Positions 2,902-53,342 of a stretch of 64,000 bases of DNA are shown in pieces (within the stretch, counting starts at the first letter, position 1; the number at the start of each line of letters is the position of its first letter). Position numbers and translations under genes: made by a program. The notes below the pieces were generated by a model that was not told the DNA's origin, ran no database searches, and saw nothing but the letters and a program-made list of their open reading frames with translations. The stretch is from Chloroflexota bacterium (GTDB taxonomy: Bacteria > Chloroflexota > Dehalococcoidia > Bin125), in assembly GCA_009838735.1 (NCBI GenBank), contig VXQZ01000038.1:1-64000 (forward strand), read 5' to 3'.

Positions 2902-5667
2902 TCAGTTGCAGAAAGCGGCGGGGTTCTCGGGGAGGCGGAACTCGATGCCAGTTACTTGGGCATTAGAGACATGAATCTCATTGGCGTTGTTCAAGTTCGT
3001 GGTTGGTCCGCTACCGCTGTAGTGGAGATTGCAGCCGTCAATGAACACCGACAATAGGTAAGAACCGCTAGCCGGCACAGCGACTGAGAATGCTCCGTCG
3101 GAGTCAGTCGAATCTCTCGCCAATCCGGCGTTGCCGTGTGCCGCGACTGCGACACCCCCTCGCGGCGTTCCGTCTGCATTGAGCAATCGCCCAGAGATTC
3201 GGCGCCCGCACACTCCTTCTGCGAGTTGTACTTTCACGCCCGTGGCATTCGCGTCCGATACCCGGACCAGTGAGGCCTGCTGATGCGAGAGCGTCGCTCC
3301 GCTGTCTCTGTAGAAAACGCGGCATCCATCGATTCTGACGGACACGCGGTACTGCCCGTTCTCGGGCACGACCATGGCAAACGAACCGTCCGAATTCGTC
3401 CGCCCACGCGCGCTTGCTCCCCCTTCGGACAGCGCAGCGACTTGTTCCCCAGCGACAGGGCTGCCGTCGGCGTCTACTACTCGCCCAGCGATTGCGTAAC
3501 CGCAGGCGTCATCCTCAACCCGGATCTGCACGTCTACGACAGCACCATCCTCGGTTGACGCGATCGTCCCTCGACTGCCGTGCCAAACTCCCTCTGAACG
3601 TCCTACTCGATCCACAGTCGACAGTGGAATCGACAGTTGGCACTCATCGCGAAGCCTAATCGTAAGAGTGCCGTGCATGCTTCTAGCCAACAGCAGAGAA
3701 AAGCTGCCGTCGGAGTTTGATAAGTTAACATTAGAAAACTGAGCGGCCGTCGGATTCTGGTTGTCGCGGTTGGTGTGGTAGTCCAAAGGTCGCTGCACCG
3801 ATACGACGAGACCGGCAAGCGGGTGGCCCGTCGCATCCAGAAGGGTACCATGAACCCGCTCACTACAGGTTCTGCTCGACACCTTCAGTTCGAGATTCCT
3901 GATACTCGAGCTCTCTACCTGCAGGACATCGGCGTCATCTGGATCTTGCACTGCTTCGCCTTCCGCATAGTAGGCGACGCAAGACGGTTCGCCAAACTGG
4001 ACGGACAGCAGATTGCGACTGTTTGGCTCAACAGCCAACTCAAATCCCTCACCGGCGTTCATCCAGTGTTTCCCGCCAATGGAGTACTCGAGACCGTCTT
4101 CTGTACGTGTCCGCACTCTGATCTTCACCTTTGTCACATCCGGATCAGCGCCCTCAGCCAAGACGACGTATCCAGCCAAGGACGGCGCTGTGGCAGGGTG
4201 CTCGTGTGTCTGCGAGCCTGCCTGGCCGTTAGTGCCGCGCCAAGACTCGAACTCACGATAAAACTCCCCAATGGAACGGCCGAAGACATCGTTGAAGGCA
4301 TCCTGCCAGCGCGGCCAAGATTCCCATTGACCATGTGGCCCAAGACCTTGTGCCTTGAGTGTTCGGAAATACTCCAACAGCGAGTAATCGCTTGGACTCT
4401 CGGTAAGGAGGTGCGCCGCCGCCCGGCCAAGGACATACTCAAAGGAGTCACCCCCTTCCTCTAGTGAAGGCAAACCGATCGTTTGCTCACGCGCACGGTT
4501 GTGGATCTGCTCCCAGGTGCTTCCCTCTGATGCATACTCGAGTGCGTCTTGGATCCACATCGCCCAACCCTCAGTGATCCAACGAGGCGGTTCGTGGAAG
4601 GTAGGCGTGGCGCGCTTGAATCGGGCTCGATGGTCAACAAGATGATATTGCAGAATGTGCAAGTACTCGTGCGCCGTATTGGACCGGGGACTCCAGCGTT
4701 CCTGCAGCTGAGACTTGGACCAATGTTCCTGTTTGATCGCCATGTGGATATGACCGTCGCGCGCGCCTTCATCCGCCCAACCCGCCGCCACACTCCAGAT
4801 ATCCCTAATGTGGGCAAGTCTGTAAGTGTCCTGCAGAAGGCGTGCCTCAGCCGACAGAAGTGATCGGCCGCCGAGAGCCCTGTTGAGGTGTTCCGGAGAT
4901 CTAGCAACATAGATGATGAACTGGCTGAAGTCCGCCTCTATGCCATATTGGTCCCAATGGAAGTCGATCACAGCGCGGACATCGGCAATCACCCTGTTCT
5001 GCAGACTCGCGTCCGCGTGCCCGGCAAAGACGACCTCAGGGACGACGCCGGTCGGTTGCAACCAATTGACCGAACGTCCAACTTCAACCCAGAGCGCGTC
5101 TCCAAATGCCAGCGAAGGCTGGGCTTCTCTATTGGCGATGGTGTCGGCCCGATAGTGCAGGAACGCTTGGTCCTGTTCCGACCAGAGCCTAGCTCGCTTG
5201 AACTGCCGTCCGACCCCGGAGATGGCGCGGTCAAGTGGCGAGCCATCACGACCCAGCCAGGAGACCATGTTCCAGCCGACTTCGAGCTGCACCGTTCCCT
5301 GTGCTGGCCGTCTTGGACGCTCCCAATCAATTGACTCGACGCCAGTGACTCTAACTTGCAGTCCCATGCCGGGTGTCAGCGTGCGTAAGGACCAGAAGCG
5401 CTCTCGGATGGTGGGCGCGGCAAAGCGCCATCTCTGTTTTGTCGCATCCCATGCGTAGACGAGTTCGATCTCCGGCACCGCCTCGAACAGAGCATTGACC
5501 GGCGCCGACTGAGTGGTCCAGCCAACCAGGTTGTGACCCGGATACAATCTGGTGACAAACGTCTCTGGCTGATCGCTCTCCTCTTCCGCTGATGCACTAG
5601 GCAGTCCAACCGTCAGAAGAGCGGTAAGCCCAACGATCAGCCATACTGACGGGAGAAAGAGGCGCAT
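2902..5667 (-). CDS. Secreted HEXXH metalloprotease (gluzincin-like), paralogue A
   Basis: 921 residues. A signal peptide (LIVGLTALLTVGLPSASA) occupies roughly residues 10-27. Residues 38-205 contain two copies of a Trp-rich module (NLVGWTT...VYAWD and NMVSWLG...ALWVEVG). The catalytic-like domain carries HEYLH at 333-337 and a downstream Glu in WITEGWAMW (E366), the zinc-binding pattern of gluzincins of the peptidase MA type. The C-terminal third has three carboxypeptidase-regulatory-like beta domains (GTLLDATGHPLAG, GRVVDADGSPVAG, GRLLNADGTPRGG) and a terminal Cys. This suggests an extracellular or surface zinc peptidase; the substrate is unknown. It is paralogous to 15426-18125 and 19398-21455 and is likewise preceded by a decayed LLM gene. 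Protease activity is inferred from motifs only. Confidence 0.8.
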   Translation of the reverse strand: MRLFLPSVWLIVGLTALLTVGLPSASAEEESDQPETFVTRLYPGHNLVGWTTQSAPVNALFEAVPEIELVYAWDATKQRWRFAAPTIRERFWSLRTLTPGMGLQVRVTGVESIDWERPRRPAQGTVQLEVGWNMVSWLGRDGSPLDRAISGVGRQFKRARLWSEQDQAFLHYRADTIANREAQPSLAFGDALWVEVGRSVNWLQPTGVVPEVVFAGHADASLQNRVIADVRAVIDFHWDQYGIEADFSQFIIYVARSPEHLNRALGGRSLLSAEARLLQDTYRLAHIRDIWSVAAGWADEGARDGHIHMAIKQEHWSKSQLQERWSPRSNTAHEYLHILQYHLVDHRARFKRATPTFHEPPRWITEGWAMWIQDALEYASEGSTWEQIHNRAREQTIGLPSLEEGGDSFEYVLGRAAAHLLTESPSDYSLLEYFRTLKAQGLGPHGQWESWPRWQDAFNDVFGRSIGEFYREFESWRGTNGQAGSQTHEHPATAPSLAGYVVLAEGADPDVTKVKIRVRTRTEDGLEYSIGGKHWMNAGEGFELAVEPNSRNLLSVQFGEPSCVAYYAEGEAVQDPDDADVLQVESSSIRNLELKVSSRTCSERVHGTLLDATGHPLAGLVVSVQRPLDYHTNRDNQNPTAAQFSNVNLSNSDGSFSLLLARSMHGTLTIRLRDECQLSIPLSTVDRVGRSEGVWHGSRGTIASTEDGAVVDVQIRVEDDACGYAIAGRVVDADGSPVAGEQVAALSEGGASARGRTNSDGSFAMVVPENGQYRVSVRIDGCRVFYRDSGATLSHQQASLVRVSDANATGVKVQLAEGVCGRRISGRLLNADGTPRGGVAVAAHGNAGLARDSTDSDGAFSVAVPASGSYLLSVFIDGCNLHYSGSGPTTNLNNANEIHVSNAQVTGIEFRLPENPAAFCN

Positions 5668-19397: not shown

Positions 19398-21455
19398 CTA
19401 CGAATCACACAACTGCTCGGGAAGCATGACTAGTATGTCCGCCACTCCTCCTCCAGCCACCTCAAATTTGCGCGCCTCACCGCGCCTGCCTAGGCCGCCA
19501 TCGTCGCGAACGTAACCGTTACACTCAGTTCCAAGCCGTTCTACACGGAGAATATAAGTTCCGGCATCGGGCACGAGAAATGCAAACGTCCCATCGGGAT
19601 TCGTTTCGCGAGCCCAAGTCACTTGCCGATGGTCCCGAGGGTCTGTCAAATGAACCTTGATTCGGTTAGTAACTTCGCCGCTCGCATTCGCCACTCGACC
19701 GGATATCTTCCACCGCCACCAGTCGTTGTGCAGCACGATTTCGATACTCGGATTCCTGCCTGTAGCAAATCGCAAATGCTCGCCGGCATTGAATGCGCTG
19801 ATACGGCCCTGCGGATCAACGAAGTCGTCCCCATCAATCAGGGTGCCATTCCGATAGTAGAAGCGCCCGACGAACCGCCCTTCCTCAGACATGTCTCCTA
19901 TCAGTACTGACGAGACACCGGTGACAAAGCGAACGATGGCACGGCCAGCATCGTCGGGGCTCACGTCATGTTCGGACCAACAACGGTGTTTAGTCGCGTC
20001 GGCCAACACGTGGTACTGCAGATTGGTCACTGGCGCTCCGTCGAGACGGCGCGCATGTACTGCGACAGGAATCAGGTCCGGCGCCGAGCCCACTTCCTCG
20101 AGCCACTGGTCTACAACCCAGCCCCGGACATTCTCGACAAACGCATCTACCCTGAGTTCGAAGGTCGCCTCAAAAGCGCTCGTCCAGTCGGCGTTGGCCG
20201 AGCCTCCCAAGCGCCGGAAGAACTCAATCACAGATTGTGTTCCATTCGTGATGACCATCTGATGCGTAGCCACGGTGCCTTCTGAGTATGACCATGCAGC
20301 CACGTCCTCGGGCAGTCGCCCGCACCCTGCGGAGCCGAGAAACTCCTCGGCGATTTCCGCGCTCCACAGGTCATTGGGCGGCTTGCCGCGCGCCCCACGA
20401 TCACGCTCCCACTTTTCGTAACTCAGGTGGGCCCATTGCGCTGTTCCCTCCAAAAGCCAAACCGGCAAGCTGTGATGGCCCAATTGCCGCTGAATGATGT
20501 GGAAGTACTCGTGCGGAAGTACGAATGGCGTCCCCTCGCTATCGCGCTGCCACGCCTCGGTCACAATGACCAAATCGTCTGCGACCCAACCAGCGGCGGT
20601 TCCCCAAAGTGTTCGGGCCCACTGCATCTGCCAATCGCGATCAACGTCATCGCCATCGCGGTAGTGGTTGAGCAGGGAATCGAGATCGGCAACGACCAGG
20701 ACGGAGAAATCGGCAAAATCTGCTTCGATGCCGAAGTTCTCGGCAAAGAAGTCCAGCACGCTCCGCATATCGCTGGGGAGTCTGTCTTGGACGCTGAAAG
20801 GCACCTCGCCGAGTAGCACGATGTCAGGCAAAGATCCTGTCGGCTGCAACCAGTTGACCGATCTGCCTACTTTTACCCACAGACCATCTCCGAACATGAG
20901 CTCCGTGACCTTGCCGCCTGATTCAATCGTATGGGGAGCGAAGATCTGCACTTCGTGCGTTGTCGTTGACCAGATGCCAACGCTCTCAGCTGTACGCCCG
21001 ATGCCTCGAACCGCGCGACCGACAGGCGCGTTGTCGGGACCAAGCCAAGCCACGAAGTTCCAACCAGGCTTCAATGTCACAGAGCCCTGCGACGGGCGAC
21101 GAGGACGTTCCCAGTCGACCGTCTGATCGCCGATCAGGCGAAGGCGAAGTCCCATCCCTGGCTTCAACTGGTCAAGCGTCCACATGCTGCGAGGGAGGTT
21201 TGGAGCGGCGAGTCTCCATTGCCGCCATTCCACATCCCAGACCCAGACAACTCCAATCTGGGGAATCGCCTCGAACAGCGCTTCCACCGGCGCGGCATCG
21301 GTGGTCCAGCCGACCAGATTGTCTCCCGGCTGCAACCGAGTGATAAACGTCTCAGGCTTGCCGCTCTGCTCTTCCGCTGCGGCGACAACCAGCCCTGCCG
21401 CGGCGAGTACGGCAAGACCGACAATCAATCCAGATAGCGCAAGGAGCCGATACAT
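19398..21455 (-). CDS. Secreted HEXXH metalloprotease (gluzincin-like), paralogue C
   Basis: 685 residues, the shortest paralogue. The signal peptide and first Trp-rich module are almost identical to paralogue B (GLVVAAAEEQSGKPETF), and a second module follows (NFVAWLG...GLWVKVG). The zinc motif is HEYFH at 315-319, with E336 in WLLEGTAQW. Only one carboxypeptidase-regulatory-like domain (GRVANASGEVTN to PDAGTYILRVE) remains at the C-terminus, against three in A and B. Exported zinc peptidase, substrate unknown. Preceded on the same strand by a heavily decayed LLM remnant. The spacing from the HEXXH to the Glu (about 20 residues) is shorter than in A and B but within the gluzincin range. Confidence 0.8.
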   Translation of the reverse strand: MYRLLALSGLIVGLAVLAAAGLVVAAAEEQSGKPETFITRLQPGDNLVGWTTDAAPVEALFEAIPQIGVVWVWDVEWRQWRLAAPNLPRSMWTLDQLKPGMGLRLRLIGDQTVDWERPRRPSQGSVTLKPGWNFVAWLGPDNAPVGRAVRGIGRTAESVGIWSTTTHEVQIFAPHTIESGGKVTELMFGDGLWVKVGRSVNWLQPTGSLPDIVLLGEVPFSVQDRLPSDMRSVLDFFAENFGIEADFADFSVLVVADLDSLLNHYRDGDDVDRDWQMQWARTLWGTAAGWVADDLVIVTEAWQRDSEGTPFVLPHEYFHIIQRQLGHHSLPVWLLEGTAQWAHLSYEKWERDRGARGKPPNDLWSAEIAEEFLGSAGCGRLPEDVAAWSYSEGTVATHQMVITNGTQSVIEFFRRLGGSANADWTSAFEATFELRVDAFVENVRGWVVDQWLEEVGSAPDLIPVAVHARRLDGAPVTNLQYHVLADATKHRCWSEHDVSPDDAGRAIVRFVTGVSSVLIGDMSEEGRFVGRFYYRNGTLIDGDDFVDPQGRISAFNAGEHLRFATGRNPSIEIVLHNDWWRWKISGRVANASGEVTNRIKVHLTDPRDHRQVTWARETNPDGTFAFLVPDAGTYILRVERLGTECNGYVRDDGGLGRRGEARKFEVAGGGVADILVMLPEQLCDS

Positions 21456-25417: not shown

Positions 25418-27463
25418 ATGCCTGTGCTCGCCCATGAACCGCCGTTGATCGACGACGAACCGCGGTCGCCAATCTCAGCCACGACGTTGTCCGAGGCAGA
25501 CCTCAATCAGATCCTCGATCAGCTCGGCGGCAGTCGCGTTTCCCTGGATCGTGCCAGGGGAACGCCAGGCCGATTCGCTGCGTTGTACCAGCGCATACGT
25601 CACCGAGAGGCGCACCTGTACAACTCCAGCGAAGTCGACCCGGCATTTCCCGCCCCCTACCTCAAGGCGACGCCATGGCAGACTGACTTGCTTCGGCGGA
25701 CCTGGTCGCAACTACGACAGCGTCTGACCGAGCACCCGCTTCGTGTACACGTCGAGCCTCCAGACGACTCACCTTCCGCTCGTCAGGCCGCGGATAACCT
25801 GGAGCATGTCCTCGAGCAGGGATTGCGTCAGATCGAAGAGCGTTCGCATCTCTCGCTCCAGGCCGATCTCGGATACGGTCAAGTCTGTCTCTGTTTCGGC
25901 GTCCTGCACTGGCAACGGGCGGCCGATCGACTGCCGCCGCTTCCGGCCAGAGAACAGCGCGGATCGCGCCCTGAGGATCCGGATGAGCGGCGCCGGTTTC
26001 GTCGGGCGCGATCAGAGGACGGCCCGGCGCTGCCCTGGATCGAGACCGAAGCCAGCCGCCGTGACCGTGATCGGCAGCGCCAGGCAGCGGCCGGATTTCC
26101 CTGGGATGTTGAGGTGATCCGCCCCGACCAGTTCGCCTTCGTCGAAGACCACGGATCGGGCAACGGGCTCGGACTGGCGGTCGTGTTGCGCGAGGTTGGA
26201 CTGAGCGAATATCGCGATCGTTTGCGCGAACAGGACCGGCTACAGCTGAGAATGACTGCCATCGCCGGTGAGCGTTCACTGGGAATCTCACGGACCGTTG
26301 ATGTTCCGGGTGTGGAAGATCCATCTGGCGTCGGCTGGGGAGACCGAGTACGGGTCGCGTCGGTCTGGACCCGCACCGAGTATTACGAACTCGCGGCATT
26401 GGACACTGCAGGCGTTCACAGCGGCCGGGGTGCGGACGGCAACCTGCGGCACGAGTGGACGTTGATCAAGTCGCACTCGCATCCGTACGAGATGCCGCCG
26501 TTTGCCATCGCCGAGGCCGACACCAACGATCACCCCGACATGACATTTCGCTGGGAACCTACCCTGGAGGGGATCTACCGGGCCAAGCCCGGTTATGACT
26601 ATGAACGATCGCTCGGCCGCTACCTGGCGGAACAGACGGTTGTTCCGTTGTATTGGATTCAGCTCCCTGACGGCACCTACCAGACCGATGATGACGGCAG
26701 CCGGATGGAAGTACCTCTCGATTCGGCTGAGGTTCGGACATTGCCCGCCGGAGCATCGTTGCATCGGGTCGAGTTTCGCGTCGATCCCGCCTTCGTCGAG
26801 TTCCTGCGCATGTCGCACGACGAGTTGGTTGCGGCCGCGCCGGACTCAGGTTCGGTCGAACGCGGTGAGATTGGACCGAACACCCAGCCGCACACGCTGA
26901 ACCTGCTGCTCGGCTCGCGCAATCTCCAGGTACAGCAACTCAAACGGGCGCAGACCAGAGCCGTCCGCGTCATGCTGCGCAACATGGCGCTGGTCATGGC
27001 CAAGCCGCTCGCCGACGGCGGATTCGGCGCGCCGATCTGGGTGTTCGCCAAGGGCAAGAACCGCGGACTCAAGCGCCGCGAGACCGTCTGCGTCGAGCCG
27101 TCGGTGATTCCGTCGTTGGATATCGATGTGTGGATTGACCCGTACTCGGCGGCCCAACGTATAGCCGTCCAGGAGCATGGCCGGGCACGGCTCACCGACC
27201 CGCTCGATCCGTTGGACCAGCGGGCCTATCTGGAGCAGTACATCGGCGAGGAGCATGCCGAGCAGGTCCTGTCACGTCATCGACAGTGGCGAATGGAGCA
27301 GGCGCGTTTTGAGCGGGAGCTTCGCAGAGTTCGCGGCGATGCCGAGTCGCAGCCTGATGTCGAAGCTCGGACCGATGTTCCGGCATCAACCAGCCTGAAG
27401 GGTCACCTGACCCCACTGGGCCGGCTGACTGCCGTGGACGACGAGCGCACTGTCAACCCATAA
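25418..27463 (+). CDS. Phage portal-like protein
   Basis: 681 residues. The start at 25418 has an AAGGAG site 8 bases upstream. Soluble, Arg/Glu-rich and without signal peptide. Features that suggest a tailed-phage portal are a long helical N-terminal part (YQRIRHREAHLYNS), a beta segment around DVEVIRPDQFAFVED, a later stretch YLAEQTVVPLYWIQLPDG, and a C-terminal helical region (NLLLGSRNLQVQQLKRAQTR). The identification is by overall look and is not certain. No terminase, capsid or tail gene lies nearby. The only companion is the zinc-ribbon gene 33 bases downstream. It could be a domesticated phage gene or an island fragment. Confidence 0.5.
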   Translation: MPVLAHEPPLIDDEPRSPISATTLSEADLNQILDQLGGSRVSLDRARGTPGRFAALYQRIRHREAHLYNSSEVDPAFPAPYLKATPWQTDLLRRTWSQLRQRLTEHPLRVHVEPPDDSPSARQAADNLEHVLEQGLRQIEERSHLSLQADLGYGQVCLCFGVLHWQRAADRLPPLPAREQRGSRPEDPDERRRFRRARSEDGPALPWIETEASRRDRDRQRQAAAGFPWDVEVIRPDQFAFVEDHGSGNGLGLAVVLREVGLSEYRDRLREQDRLQLRMTAIAGERSLGISRTVDVPGVEDPSGVGWGDRVRVASVWTRTEYYELAALDTAGVHSGRGADGNLRHEWTLIKSHSHPYEMPPFAIAEADTNDHPDMTFRWEPTLEGIYRAKPGYDYERSLGRYLAEQTVVPLYWIQLPDGTYQTDDDGSRMEVPLDSAEVRTLPAGASLHRVEFRVDPAFVEFLRMSHDELVAAAPDSGSVERGEIGPNTQPHTLNLLLGSRNLQVQQLKRAQTRAVRVMLRNMALVMAKPLADGGFGAPIWVFAKGKNRGLKRRETVCVEPSVIPSLDIDVWIDPYSAAQRIAVQEHGRARLTDPLDPLDQRAYLEQYIGEEHAEQVLSRHRQWRMEQARFERELRRVRGDAESQPDVEARTDVPASTSLKGHLTPLGRLTAVDDERTVNP

Positions 27464-29222: not shown

Positions 29223-30269
29223 ATGGCCACGATTCAGCACGATGTCCCTGGGATCAACCTTGACTGGCTCAATGTCGATACCGACCAGGGGATGGAGATC
29301 GAGACCGGCCGCAAGGGTCTGACCCTGGAGACCATCAACCAGATGACCTATGGGGTCGACGACCGCGACGAAGCACGGCACCGACAGTGGGCGCCGCGCG
29401 GCGCCACCGCCGATCCTCGTTCGCCCTCAAACAGCGTCCAGCACCTCAACAAGGCCGACGTCTGGACCGAGTCGGCGATGCTGCTCTACGAAGAGGCGCT
29501 CCAGCGGCAGTGGTCCTCGGCCCGTGACATCCCCTGGGACACGATCGAAGATCTGCCTCCCGACCTCGAGCGCGCGATGTGCACGCTATGCACCTTCCTG
29601 ACCCAGGTCGAATTCATCGCCGGCGACGTCCCCGGTCGCTACCTGGAGCAGATCCACCCCGAGTTCTTCGAGTCGCAGCTCTTCCTCGGCACCCAGCTGA
29701 TGGACGAGGCGCGTCACCTGGACGTGTTCCGCAAGCGCACCCTGATCAACGGTGGCGGCATGTCCGGCGCCGGTCTGGGCGCAGTGCAATTGCTTGGTTC
29801 TGATGACTTCACGGAGATGACCGCCCTGCTTCACCTCGTCGGAGAGGGCTTTGTCCAGACCCTCTTCCGGATGGGCGAGTTGATCGCCCAGAACGAGGCC
29901 GAGAAGCGCATCTTCCGCCTGTCAGCGCAGGACGAGTCGCGGCACCTCGCCTTCGGCGTGACGCACCTGAAGTACACGGTCGAGACCGAGCCCTGGCGCA
30001 AGGAAGAACTGCATCACATCCTCGACATGCAAGAGGCGCTGCTGACGCAGTCTCAGCAGACCTCCCTGACCACCAACCCGCTCACCGGCGAGGCGCTGGC
30101 GATCCTTTCAGGCGGCGGCATCGAGCACCTCGACGAGGGCTACAACATGGTCATGCTGATGCGTAAGAAGCAGTTCGTCGAGTACGCCCACCGGCTGGAA
30201 GTGATCGGGCTCGACCGCTCTGACCGCTTCGGGCCCGAGGTGTTGGAGCTGGTCGGCGAGAACAACTAG
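29223..30269 (+). CDS. Ferritin-like diiron protein with complete ligand set
   Basis: 348 residues from the ATG at 29223, preceded by GGAG at good spacing. Predicted four-helix ferritin-like/R2-like fold. The expected six carboxylate-bridged diiron ligands can be read: E130 (TQVEFIAGD), E162 and H165 (MDEARHLDVF), E208 (LVGEGFVQ), E238 and H241 (QDESRHLAFG). Such proteins activate O2 for oxidations or N-oxygenations; the AurF and R2lox families are relatives in a broad sense. The substrate is unknown. A paralogue lacking nearly all these ligands follows 155 bases downstream. Cytosolic, no signal peptide. Confidence 0.8.
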   Translation: MATIQHDVPGINLDWLNVDTDQGMEIETGRKGLTLETINQMTYGVDDRDEARHRQWAPRGATADPRSPSNSVQHLNKADVWTESAMLLYEEALQRQWSSARDIPWDTIEDLPPDLERAMCTLCTFLTQVEFIAGDVPGRYLEQIHPEFFESQLFLGTQLMDEARHLDVFRKRTLINGGGMSGAGLGAVQLLGSDDFTEMTALLHLVGEGFVQTLFRMGELIAQNEAEKRIFRLSAQDESRHLAFGVTHLKYTVETEPWRKEELHHILDMQEALLTQSQQTSLTTNPLTGEALAILSGGGIEHLDEGYNMVMLMRKKQFVEYAHRLEVIGLDRSDRFGPEVLELVGENN

Positions 30270-30293
30270 CTTGGCGACATGCACGTGTGCCGT

Positions 30294-30321
30294 GTAGGGG
30301 CGCCCTTTGTGGGCGCCCTAC
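30294..30321 (+). terminator. Hairpin between the two ferritin-like genes
   Basis: GTAGGGGCGCCC and GGGCGCCCTAC form a stem of about 11 bp with one bulged G and a short loop. Only a weak T-run follows. It may act as a terminator or attenuator setting the ratio of the two proteins. Confidence 0.45.
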
Positions 30322-30424
30322 GCGTTTCCGTCGCGCAGAACAGACCTGAGCGACGCTGATCGGATTCCAGGAAGGACCGCGCGCCAGAGCGGTCCGAGCG
30401 AAGCATCGATGGAAGAGCAGGCCA

Positions 30425-31663
30425 ATGGAACTGTCGACCACGACCAAAGTGCGCGCCAAGAAGGCGGGGTGGTCTGAGGAATTGATCGAGCGGATTGAGG
30501 GCTCCGCAGCCACGGACAAGCAAGTCGAGAACCTGGCCCGCGGCGAGCTCAGCGAAGAGAAGATCAGCGGCTGGCTCGACTTTCTCGAGAATCATCCTGA
30601 CAACCCATTCGGCAAAGCTCCCTTCAACATCTTCAACTCCCCGGCCGAGGTAGGTCTCAAGGCGACTCCGGGTCCCGACGGCTTGCGTCTGCGCGACATC
30701 AACATCGGCAGCTACGGCATTGTGCCTGACACGTGGCACCTGCCCAATGACGCGCCGCGGGGAACCGAGTCGACCGGCCTGATCATGGCGGCCGGCTATT
30801 CGATCTTCGACAAAGCGGAGGTCTGGTCGGAAAACGCGGTCGACCTGTACGAAGACGCGATCAAGGACCGCTGGATCCCGGCGACGGAACTCGACTGGGA
30901 GAACGGTCTGGAAGAGCTGCCCGAAGAACTTGAACGATCCATCGGGCAGATCTGCACGATCTACTCGAACAACGGCCTGGTCGAACAGAAAATCATCGGC
31001 CGCTGGCTGGAAGAAATCTCCTACGGCTTCCACGAGGTCAAACTGTTCCTTGCCACCCAGGCATTTGACGCCGGCCGCAAGGTCGAAGTGCTGCGCAAGC
31101 GTGCGCTGATGAACGGCGGCGGACTGGGGCAGGCGCCACTGGGACAGATTTATCGAGGCTGGTACCAGGGCCTGACCTTCACCGACATGCTGATCGCACT
31201 CAACGTCGTCTACAAGAGCTACGAAGTGGCGTTGTTCGAATCGGCGTCCGAGTGGGCGCAGACCGAAGTTGAACGCGACATCTTCGCCAAAATCGCAACC
31301 GACTCGCGCCGACACCTCGACTACGGGCTCGGCCACCTCGAGTGGTACACCCGCTACAAGCCCGAGGCCGATCGTCGACTGACCATCCAGTTCCTCCGCG
31401 CCGAAGCGTCCATGGTTCAGGAGATGCGGCTATCGACGACGGAACGCGAGGCGCTCATCGTCTTGCTGGCCGGCGGAGTTGAGAACCTTCAGTCCGGCGT
31501 CGACAAACTGAAGACGTTGCGGCAACGGCAACTCGACGTGTACACCGAGGGTCTGGCCTCGATCAACTTCGATCGCCCCACGGTGCATCCCGGTCTTGCC
31601 GGTCAGGTCAAGGACCCGCTGGAAGGCGGGATCGTCGCCGTCCGCGCGATAGCGCAGAACTAG
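30425..31663 (+). CDS. Ferritin-like paralogue lacking the diiron ligands
   Basis: 412 residues. It aligns over its C-terminal 290 residues with the preceding gene (shared KADVWTE/KAEVWSE, RKRTLINGGG/RKRALMNGGG, GG-IEHLDEG/GG-VENLQSG segments) and has an extra 65 or so N-terminal residues. At the positions of the partner's metal ligands it has G184, A216, K219, K264 and S294; only the last His (H297) is kept. It is therefore very unlikely to bind a diiron centre. The arrangement recalls multicomponent monooxygenases, in which a metal-free beta subunit pairs with the catalytic alpha subunit, but heterodimerisation here is inference. The frame is intact with normal codon use, arguing for function rather than decay. 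Confidence 0.8.
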   Translation: MELSTTTKVRAKKAGWSEELIERIEGSAATDKQVENLARGELSEEKISGWLDFLENHPDNPFGKAPFNIFNSPAEVGLKATPGPDGLRLRDINIGSYGIVPDTWHLPNDAPRGTESTGLIMAAGYSIFDKAEVWSENAVDLYEDAIKDRWIPATELDWENGLEELPEELERSIGQICTIYSNNGLVEQKIIGRWLEEISYGFHEVKLFLATQAFDAGRKVEVLRKRALMNGGGLGQAPLGQIYRGWYQGLTFTDMLIALNVVYKSYEVALFESASEWAQTEVERDIFAKIATDSRRHLDYGLGHLEWYTRYKPEADRRLTIQFLRAEASMVQEMRLSTTEREALIVLLAGGVENLQSGVDKLKTLRQRQLDVYTEGLASINFDRPTVHPGLAGQVKDPLEGGIVAVRAIAQN

Positions 31664-52010: not shown

Positions 52011-53342
52011 CTAGGTCGGGTTCTGAACCGTCGCCATCGCCGCCGGTGAAATTCCGACCGCTTCCGAATCCTCGGGGAGGTCGAAGGGACCGGGCAGGTC
52101 AAGCTCCTGCGCCATCTCCCGGACGGCGGGCAACACTTCCTCGCCCATCAGGCGGAGCGAGCGCATGGAGTCCTCGTGAGACATCGACCCGTCCCCGTCC
52201 CAGAAACAGATACTGCCGGGACGGATGAACTCCAGGACATGCCGGATCTTCGGGATCACCGTCTTTGGAGTGCCGGAGATGATGCTGTAAGACTCTTCCA
52301 GCCCGCGGTACGTGTCCTCTGTCTCGACAAAGCCCTCGGCGGCGTCCAAAGTCAACCGCTTGTAGTCGTCCGGATTGACCTGGCTCGCGCCGCGCGACTC
52401 CTCAACGTGCCGCACGCCTGCCGTCGGCAGCAATCGCCGACGGTCGATCATGCCTGGCAGGTTCTGGATGTGACGCTTGACGTCACCGCGCGAACCTTCG
52501 AGGAAGATGTTGCCTGGACCGGTGAGGTACTTCCGACCGACTTCCTCAGCCAGCTCCTCCGTCTCGTCAACGTGGACCTTCCACAGGTAGCCGCGATGCT
52601 GCGGTCCGGCCTCATAGCCGAATTCTGCCGCGACTTTGTCGTAGTAGGCAAACGAATCACGCGTAGGAGCGAGCCGGGTCGCCAACATCACGTAGGGATA
52701 TCGGCGCTCGGCCGCCCACGCGACGGTGCGCTGGGAGACCGCGCCGGGAATCCAGATTGGCGGATGCGGTTTCTGTAGGGGCTTCGACCACGGATTCACG
52801 TAGCGGTAGTCGTAGTGTTCTCCCTCCCAGCGGAAGGGTCCGGCGTCAGTCCAGGCCTTGACCACCAGGTCGTGCGCCTCCTGATAGCGCTCCCAGTTGT
52901 ACGGCGACTGCGAGTTGTGCGCGAGCGATTCGCGTCCCGTCCCTCGCACCCAGCCGGTGATCAGCCGTCCACCCGAGATCATGTCGATCTCGGCCAGCGT
53001 TTCGGCCAGCCACAGCGGATCCTCCCAGATCGGCAGGATGTTGCCCAACAGGCAAATCTTCGCCCGTTGGGTGATTCGAGCCAGGATCGCCGCTTCAACG
53101 TTGATCACCGAACCCATGCAGAACGGCGTCGAGTGGTGCTCGTTGAGCACGATGCCGTCGAATCCTGCCTCCTCGGCAGCGACCGCCTCGTCCAGATAGC
53201 GGTGGTACAGATTGGCGCCCAGTACCGGGTCATACTCGTCATTTGACGAGTCAAGGTCGGTCAAGCGCCGTCCGGTCCGTCCCCACCACGACGCCTCAGG
53301 ATCCTGATACGGCCGCTCCGTGAACCAGCCAATGAACATCAT
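52011..53342 (-). CDS. LLM-class flavin-dependent oxidoreductase
   Basis: 443 residues, intact, longer than average for the family. TIM-barrel signatures: YLDEAVAAEEAGFDGIVLNEHH, ICLLGNILPIWEDPLWLAE, MISGGRLITGWVRGTGRE and WIPGAVSQRTVAWAAE. Such enzymes use FMNH2 or F420 with O2 or other acceptors. It is unrelated in detail to the three decayed LLM genes at 5.8, 18.6 and 21.8 kb. Not obviously in an operon. Confidence 0.88.
   Translation of the reverse strand: MMFIGWFTERPYQDPEASWWGRTGRRLTDLDSSNDEYDPVLGANLYHRYLDEAVAAEEAGFDGIVLNEHHSTPFCMGSVINVEAAILARITQRAKICLLGNILPIWEDPLWLAETLAEIDMISGGRLITGWVRGTGRESLAHNSQSPYNWERYQEAHDLVVKAWTDAGPFRWEGEHYDYRYVNPWSKPLQKPHPPIWIPGAVSQRTVAWAAERRYPYVMLATRLAPTRDSFAYYDKVAAEFGYEAGPQHRGYLWKVHVDETEELAEEVGRKYLTGPGNIFLEGSRGDVKRHIQNLPGMIDRRRLLPTAGVRHVEESRGASQVNPDDYKRLTLDAAEGFVETEDTYRGLEESYSIISGTPKTVIPKIRHVLEFIRPGSICFWDGDGSMSHEDSMRSLRLMGEEVLPAVREMAQELDLPGPFDLPEDSEAVGISPAAMATVQNPT

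Follow-up and report, generated by a model that had tools for sequence, protein, structure and literature searches.

The hydroxylases of the bacterial multicomponent monooxygenases (BMM) contain a pair of ferritin-like subunits, alpha and beta, of which one is active and the other inactive, and in yeast RNR an active R2 protein (Rnr2, or beta) is likewise accompanied by a ligand-lacking paralogue (Rnr4, or beta'). In the Paa system, the phenylacetyl-CoA epoxidase, PaaA, PaaC and PaaB are the catalytic, structural and bridging subunits of a 2:2:2 complex of solved structure, in which PaaA shares only 17% identity with PaaC (PMC4498308). R2lox, the R2-like ligand-binding oxidase with an Mn/Fe site, has been described as one polypeptide. 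Its metal ligands are E69, E102, H105, E167, E202 and H205, and it carries a Val-Tyr ether cross-link between V72 (E69+3) and Y162 (E167-5) (PMC6060897). Alkane hydroxylation has been reported for an R2lox (PMC10867098).

Here we analyse two tandem genes, A and B, from the genome of a member of the Dehalococcoidia, together with a third gene, C, that recurs beside them in related genomes. By profile search, none of the three proteins reaches the threshold of a known Pfam or NCBIfam family, and we found no account of the A/B family in the literature.

The tandem genes A and B

Both genes lie on the forward strand of the window, by which we mean the whole stretch of 64,000 nucleotides that was analysed. 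Their products are paralogous (33% identity across 320 residues, BLASTP E 3e-46) and both frames are open, as a sequence-only reading of the window had claimed in calling them an intact tandem ferritin-like pair. The features discussed below are as follows.

29223-30269, + strand: open frame of subunit A (P0001), 348 aa, a ferritin-like dimetal protein with six ligands
29610-29612, + strand: codon for E130 of A (B counterpart G184 at 30974-30976)
29706-29717, + strand: E162 to H165 of A, a D-E-x-R-H motif (B counterpart A216 to K219 at 31070-31081)
29844-29846, + strand: codon for E208 of A (B counterpart K264 at 31214-31216)
29934-29945, + strand: E238 to H241 of A, a second D-E-x-R-H motif (B counterpart S294 to H297 at 31304-31315)
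30298-30318, + strand: GC-rich hairpin in the A-B gap (30270-30424), from folding and genus comparison
30425-31663, + strand: open frame of subunit B (P0002), 412 aa, a paralogue of A without five of the six ligands
30425-30630, + strand: N-terminal helical extension of B, not in A but found in several other B proteins

The ligands of A are E130, E162, H165, E208, E238 and H241, the EEHEEH set of a ferritin-like bundle, from which a di-iron site is predicted; the corresponding residues of B are G184, A216, K219, K264, S294 and H297. In AlphaFold models the six columns fall in four long helices of each protein, these being residues 113-141, 146-177, 196-216 and 225-255 of the bundle in A (mean pLDDT 78) and 167-197, 200-231, 252-277 and 281-311 in B (mean pLDDT 89). 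The residues that flank the ligands of A, D161/R164 and D237/R240, are retained in nearly all B proteins (as D215/R218 and D293/R296 in the window), the second couple being present in 42 of 42 B rows of the family-wide alignment. Since these DxxR anchors are common to A and B they fix the register, and the ligands of B cannot be restored by realignment. The earlier claim that five of six ligands are replaced in B thus survives with the same residues (G, A, K, K, S and H), and a structure-supported alignment did not bring the ligands back, an outcome that would have refuted it. One helix turn ahead of E208, A also has H204, which is found in 92% of A proteins, is mostly gone in B, and could be a second-shell residue or a seventh ligand. 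Conserved features specific to B include the Y200-G201 region; the N-terminal extension has no match in Pfam.

GC-rich inverted repeats occur in the A-B gap of seven other aligned genus members too, with differing sequence and in some cases with a short T-rich stretch (TTGTTT) after them; fold z-scores ranged from -1.1 to -5.6 in those members that were folded. We infer that the hairpin may be a partial terminator or an mRNA processing site that sets the A:B ratio. The gap of a second pair in the same genome, on contig 19 (L032 8006-8155), contains repeated TCTGGAC-like units.

Around A/B pairs lie genes for an SDR, a CoA-transferase, a luciferase-like monooxygenase and a hydrolase, named by inspection with only partial family searches; no background was computed for these neighbours and so no substrate is claimed. 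The window itself encodes a 681-aa protein without a Pfam match (25418-27463, + strand), which also stands beside the pair in other genus members and in G017 (L024, L088, L091), and a luciferase-like flavin monooxygenase (52011-53342, - strand; Pfam Bac_luciferase, E 3.7e-33). Two further window genes (2902-5667 and 19398-21455, both - strand) encode secreted-looking paralogues, 30% identical over 726 columns (E 3e-86), which have in common an N-terminal 'PETF-TRL-PG-NLVGWTT' region and a metallopeptidase-like HEYxHI(L/I)Q motif.

Comparison with described systems

Searched with Foldseek against the PDB, A found its best folds in R2lox chains (TM about 0.5-0.6), then in RNR R2 and methane monooxygenase hydroxylase (MMOH), and B in RNR R2, MMOH and PaaAC. 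The best NCBIfam match of A is also R2lox, at 30.8 bits against a cut-off of 194, and other A-type members score 27-32 bits. A has the four-Glu/two-His set and helix order of R2lox, which B does not. The cross-link pair, however, is absent from A, where spacing from the ligands places A133, a nearly invariant Ala, at V72 and L203 at Y162. Because these residues are missing and the score is far below the cut-off, A is not assigned to R2lox; moreover, A is accompanied by a pseudo-subunit and a small protein, in contrast to the single polypeptide described for R2lox.

Both A and B have MMOH chains among their fold matches, and the ligand pattern and models agree with an arrangement of active plus inactive same-fold subunits as in BMM, although physical association of A and B is inferred. 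The sequence-only reading had drawn this parallel with multicomponent diiron oxygenases while remarking that the family looked different, and on both counts our results concur: no recognised Pfam or NCBIfam family matches above threshold, and neither A nor B hit the phenol/methane hydroxylase families of BMM in Pfam at E up to 1, or in NCBIfam. The subunits are of about 350-410 aa, compared with about 510 for MMOH alpha, and among the partly annotated neighbours of A/B no gamma subunit, effector or reductase gene was identified, with only C and sometimes an FmdB zinc-ribbon protein recurring beside B. With Paa, apart from the fold matches of B, the parallel is at the genetic level only, in that a catalytic ferritin-like protein, a structural protein of the same fold and a small bridging subunit would correspond to A, B and C. 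A and B are closer to one another (33% identical) than PaaA and PaaC, have no Pfam or NCBIfam match to either, and no PaaE-like reductase was seen beside the pair. Rnr2/Rnr4 differs in being a eukaryotic nucleotide reductase, and A has no R2 match in Pfam or NCBIfam.

Recurrence and evolution of the pair

The genome that contains the window has three tandem A-B pairs, in the window, on contig 19 (82988-85360) and on contig 35 (62039-59799), a repetition that the sequence-only reading missed; in all three the first protein is intact and the second degenerate. Members of the A/B family are present in 15 of 15 genus genomes examined and in 97 of 394 Dehalococcoidia genomes sampled, about a quarter, and tandem pairs extend to numerous other families of the class and, beyond it, to at least one further family of the Chloroflexota. 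Outside the phylum, sampling was confined to short peptide patterns from B and to plasmids, and no A relatives were found on the latter.

Ligand counts are bimodal among 192 members read, some loci being counted twice where they were fetched by two routes: the full set of six is present in 104, the remaining 88 retain two or fewer, and none has three to five. The replacements in B vary by lineage (GAKKSH, GALDIH, AAHGKH, ALHDRL, AYHTLQ and others), so that the common denominator is loss of metal binding and not any one substitution. All 58 linked pairs have A upstream of B, and the two genes are unlinked in several genomes. Co-occurrence of both genes, which had been proposed as a check on the pair and whose absence elsewhere would have refuted the claim, was observed in 49 of the 53 genomes with loci read, and B was never found alone (0/53). 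A-type genes with no B seen were found in G023, G049, G072 and G165; the first two have a single A-type gene and no C, while G165 has B-like pieces only at contig ends, one with C directly after. One G090 locus has C immediately after an A-type gene and lacks an intervening B (L202 6365-8186); an A-B pair lies elsewhere in the genome (L201). On the evidence of this locus and of the A-type genes without B, B is possibly dispensable for some A proteins.

Several other loci were noted in the survey. G165 has two A-type genes near each other on one strand (L151 6970-9920), with two more elsewhere, and contig 24 of the window genome encodes a distant, partnerless ferritin-like protein with six ligands (L034 5872-7278 in G000, E 5e-13). 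A B orthologue in G017 (L076 1066-2335) and an A gene in G180 (L142 6912-8175) are frame-broken, whether as pseudogenes or through assembly errors; other pairs are intact in both genomes.

Between the window and eight genus relatives, dN/dS is 0.03-0.13 for B and 0.03-0.07 for A. B changes at about twice the rate of A, and its ratio, far below 1, indicates that it is not decaying. Given the recurrence of the pattern in two further pairs of this genome and in dozens of others, with B under purifying selection, the combination of an intact A with a ligand-poor B is not the product of chance or decay.

Phylogenetic trees place the B proteins, minus two of family f30, in one strongly supported clade and the A proteins in another, while solo proteins from related genomes fall outside both; one of the trees was built with the ligand columns omitted, and a first rooted tree was set aside after a very long row (L200) was drawn into the B clade. 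With solo proteins outside both clades, the pair most likely arose by duplication inside its own R2lox-like family and was not inherited from BMM alpha/beta or PaaA/PaaC. We do not claim a single origin for every B protein, since it is undecided whether the f30 sequences (L083, L158) have the same origin as the main B clade (AU p 0.35). Subclades of A and B match, including several cases in which A and B are unlinked, and over 36 linked pairs the distances among A proteins and those among B proteins have a rank correlation of 0.82, where the best of 2000 permutations reached 0.41. Common ancestry inflates both the mirror trees and the co-occurrence.

A probable third component and the proposed enzyme

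A third component, missed by the sequence-only reading, probably belongs to the system. C is a protein of ~145 aa with 16 columns that are invariant across 16 diverse members. In about 25 loci, spread over many families, its gene comes immediately 3' of B, even where B is separated from A; some lineages encode a zinc-ribbon protein of FmdB type between B and C. C is found in 94 of the 394 class genomes and together with the A/B family in 92 (Fisher p 6e-81, without correction for phylogeny), the two being discordant in 7 of the 99 genomes that have either. When a sample of 61 relatives is counted by genus, 9 genera have both, 35 have neither and 1 and 1 are discordant (p 9e-8). In the window genus the three pairs are matched by a single C gene, which lies away from them (at contig 23:110188-110616 in the window genome); C is likewise unlinked in family f33. 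A relationship of C to SCP2 was considered and rejected: a PDB search returned two SCP2 chains only at E about 0.9, Pfam gave no match, and comparing profiles with the sole SCP2 found in a relative was unsuccessful (probability 0.1).

We consider it probable that A, B and C form one multi-subunit, O2-activating dimetal oxidase or monooxygenase (di-iron or Mn/Fe), although the metal identity, the oxygenase activity, the roles of B and C and the A-B heteromer itself are inferred, the last from genetics. A would bind the metals and perform the chemistry. B would be a structural or regulatory pseudo-subunit that keeps the bundle and second-shell scaffold without the metal site; most likely it would sit where the second A would be in an R2-like dimer, and there would stabilise A, shape its substrate or electron entry, or dock C. 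C may be an accessory protein with a bridging, effector or substrate-presenting role. By analogy, the three would work like PaaA, PaaC and PaaB without belonging to the Paa family. A haem-copper oxidase is encoded in 93 of the 97 A/B genomes, compared with 119 of 297 others, and the four without it are 84-89% complete; the association is confounded by lineage but is as expected of an enzyme that uses O2. With less assurance, though still on the favourable side of the balance, we regard the system as an undescribed three-component dimetal family, in which an active/pseudo pair evolved separately from those of BMM and Paa, out of an R2lox-like ancestor, C is a new accessory protein of no known family, and in some genera three catalytic pairs share one C.

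Of the other readings, the one that survives best, although we think it unlikely, is that B is a neofunctionalised stand-alone protein that merely adjoins A, binding a ligand or lipid or holding a new mononuclear metal site through the retained histidines. Of the 88 B-type members 64 retain H241 and 33 retain H165, so that a two-His site is possible in some lineages, and the Y200-G201 region, the N-terminal extension and the unlinked genes would all suit an independent protein. Yet the window type has Lys in place of H165, and Gln or Ala sometimes replaces H241, which leaves no metal set common to all B proteins, and a protein of separate function sits poorly with the fixed gene order, the mirror trees and the absence of any genome with B alone.

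A and B might also form a heteromer that is no oxygenase, serving instead in iron or oxygen/peroxide handling, as a radical-generating R2-type partner or as an electron-transfer scaffold. Functions of this kind exist in the ferritin-like superfamily, and the gene clusters repeatedly found next to the pairs, whose neighbours are only partly annotated, yielded no recognisable reductase or ferredoxin; the nearest folds, however, are of oxygenase/oxidase and R2 types and not ferritins, and we hold this reading to be improbable. It is doubtful, too, that C is a genome-level passenger of the same aerobic lineages and not a component of the A/B system: phylogeny is partly behind the co-occurrence, and the lack of linkage in the window genus and f33 would allow it, but the position directly 3' of B in many families, kept where B has left A, and the low discordance speak against it. 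That B is a pseudogene product or functionless, decaying duplicate, as the lost ligands, the faster rate and the frame breaks of the G017 orthologue could suggest, is scarcely credible for a gene with low dN/dS, an open frame in nearly all genomes, retention over many families of the class and a conserved motif of its own.

Pairs of catalytic and dead subunits are rare landmarks among ferritin-like oxygenases (BMM, Paa and yeast RNR), and A/B adds one more that seems to have arisen independently. Its numerous natural pairs, the solo outgroups and a third component defined by genetics bring the reason for metal-free twins within reach of a test. The Dehalococcoidia are known best for anaerobic dehalogenators, and the substrates of their oxygen-using members are poorly known; the family reveals what is probably an oxygenase in roughly one in four of the genomes sampled from the class. 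The recurrence of an active/dead pair with C points to an undescribed multi-part enzyme that uses oxygen, and whose 'dead' part is retained for a reason.
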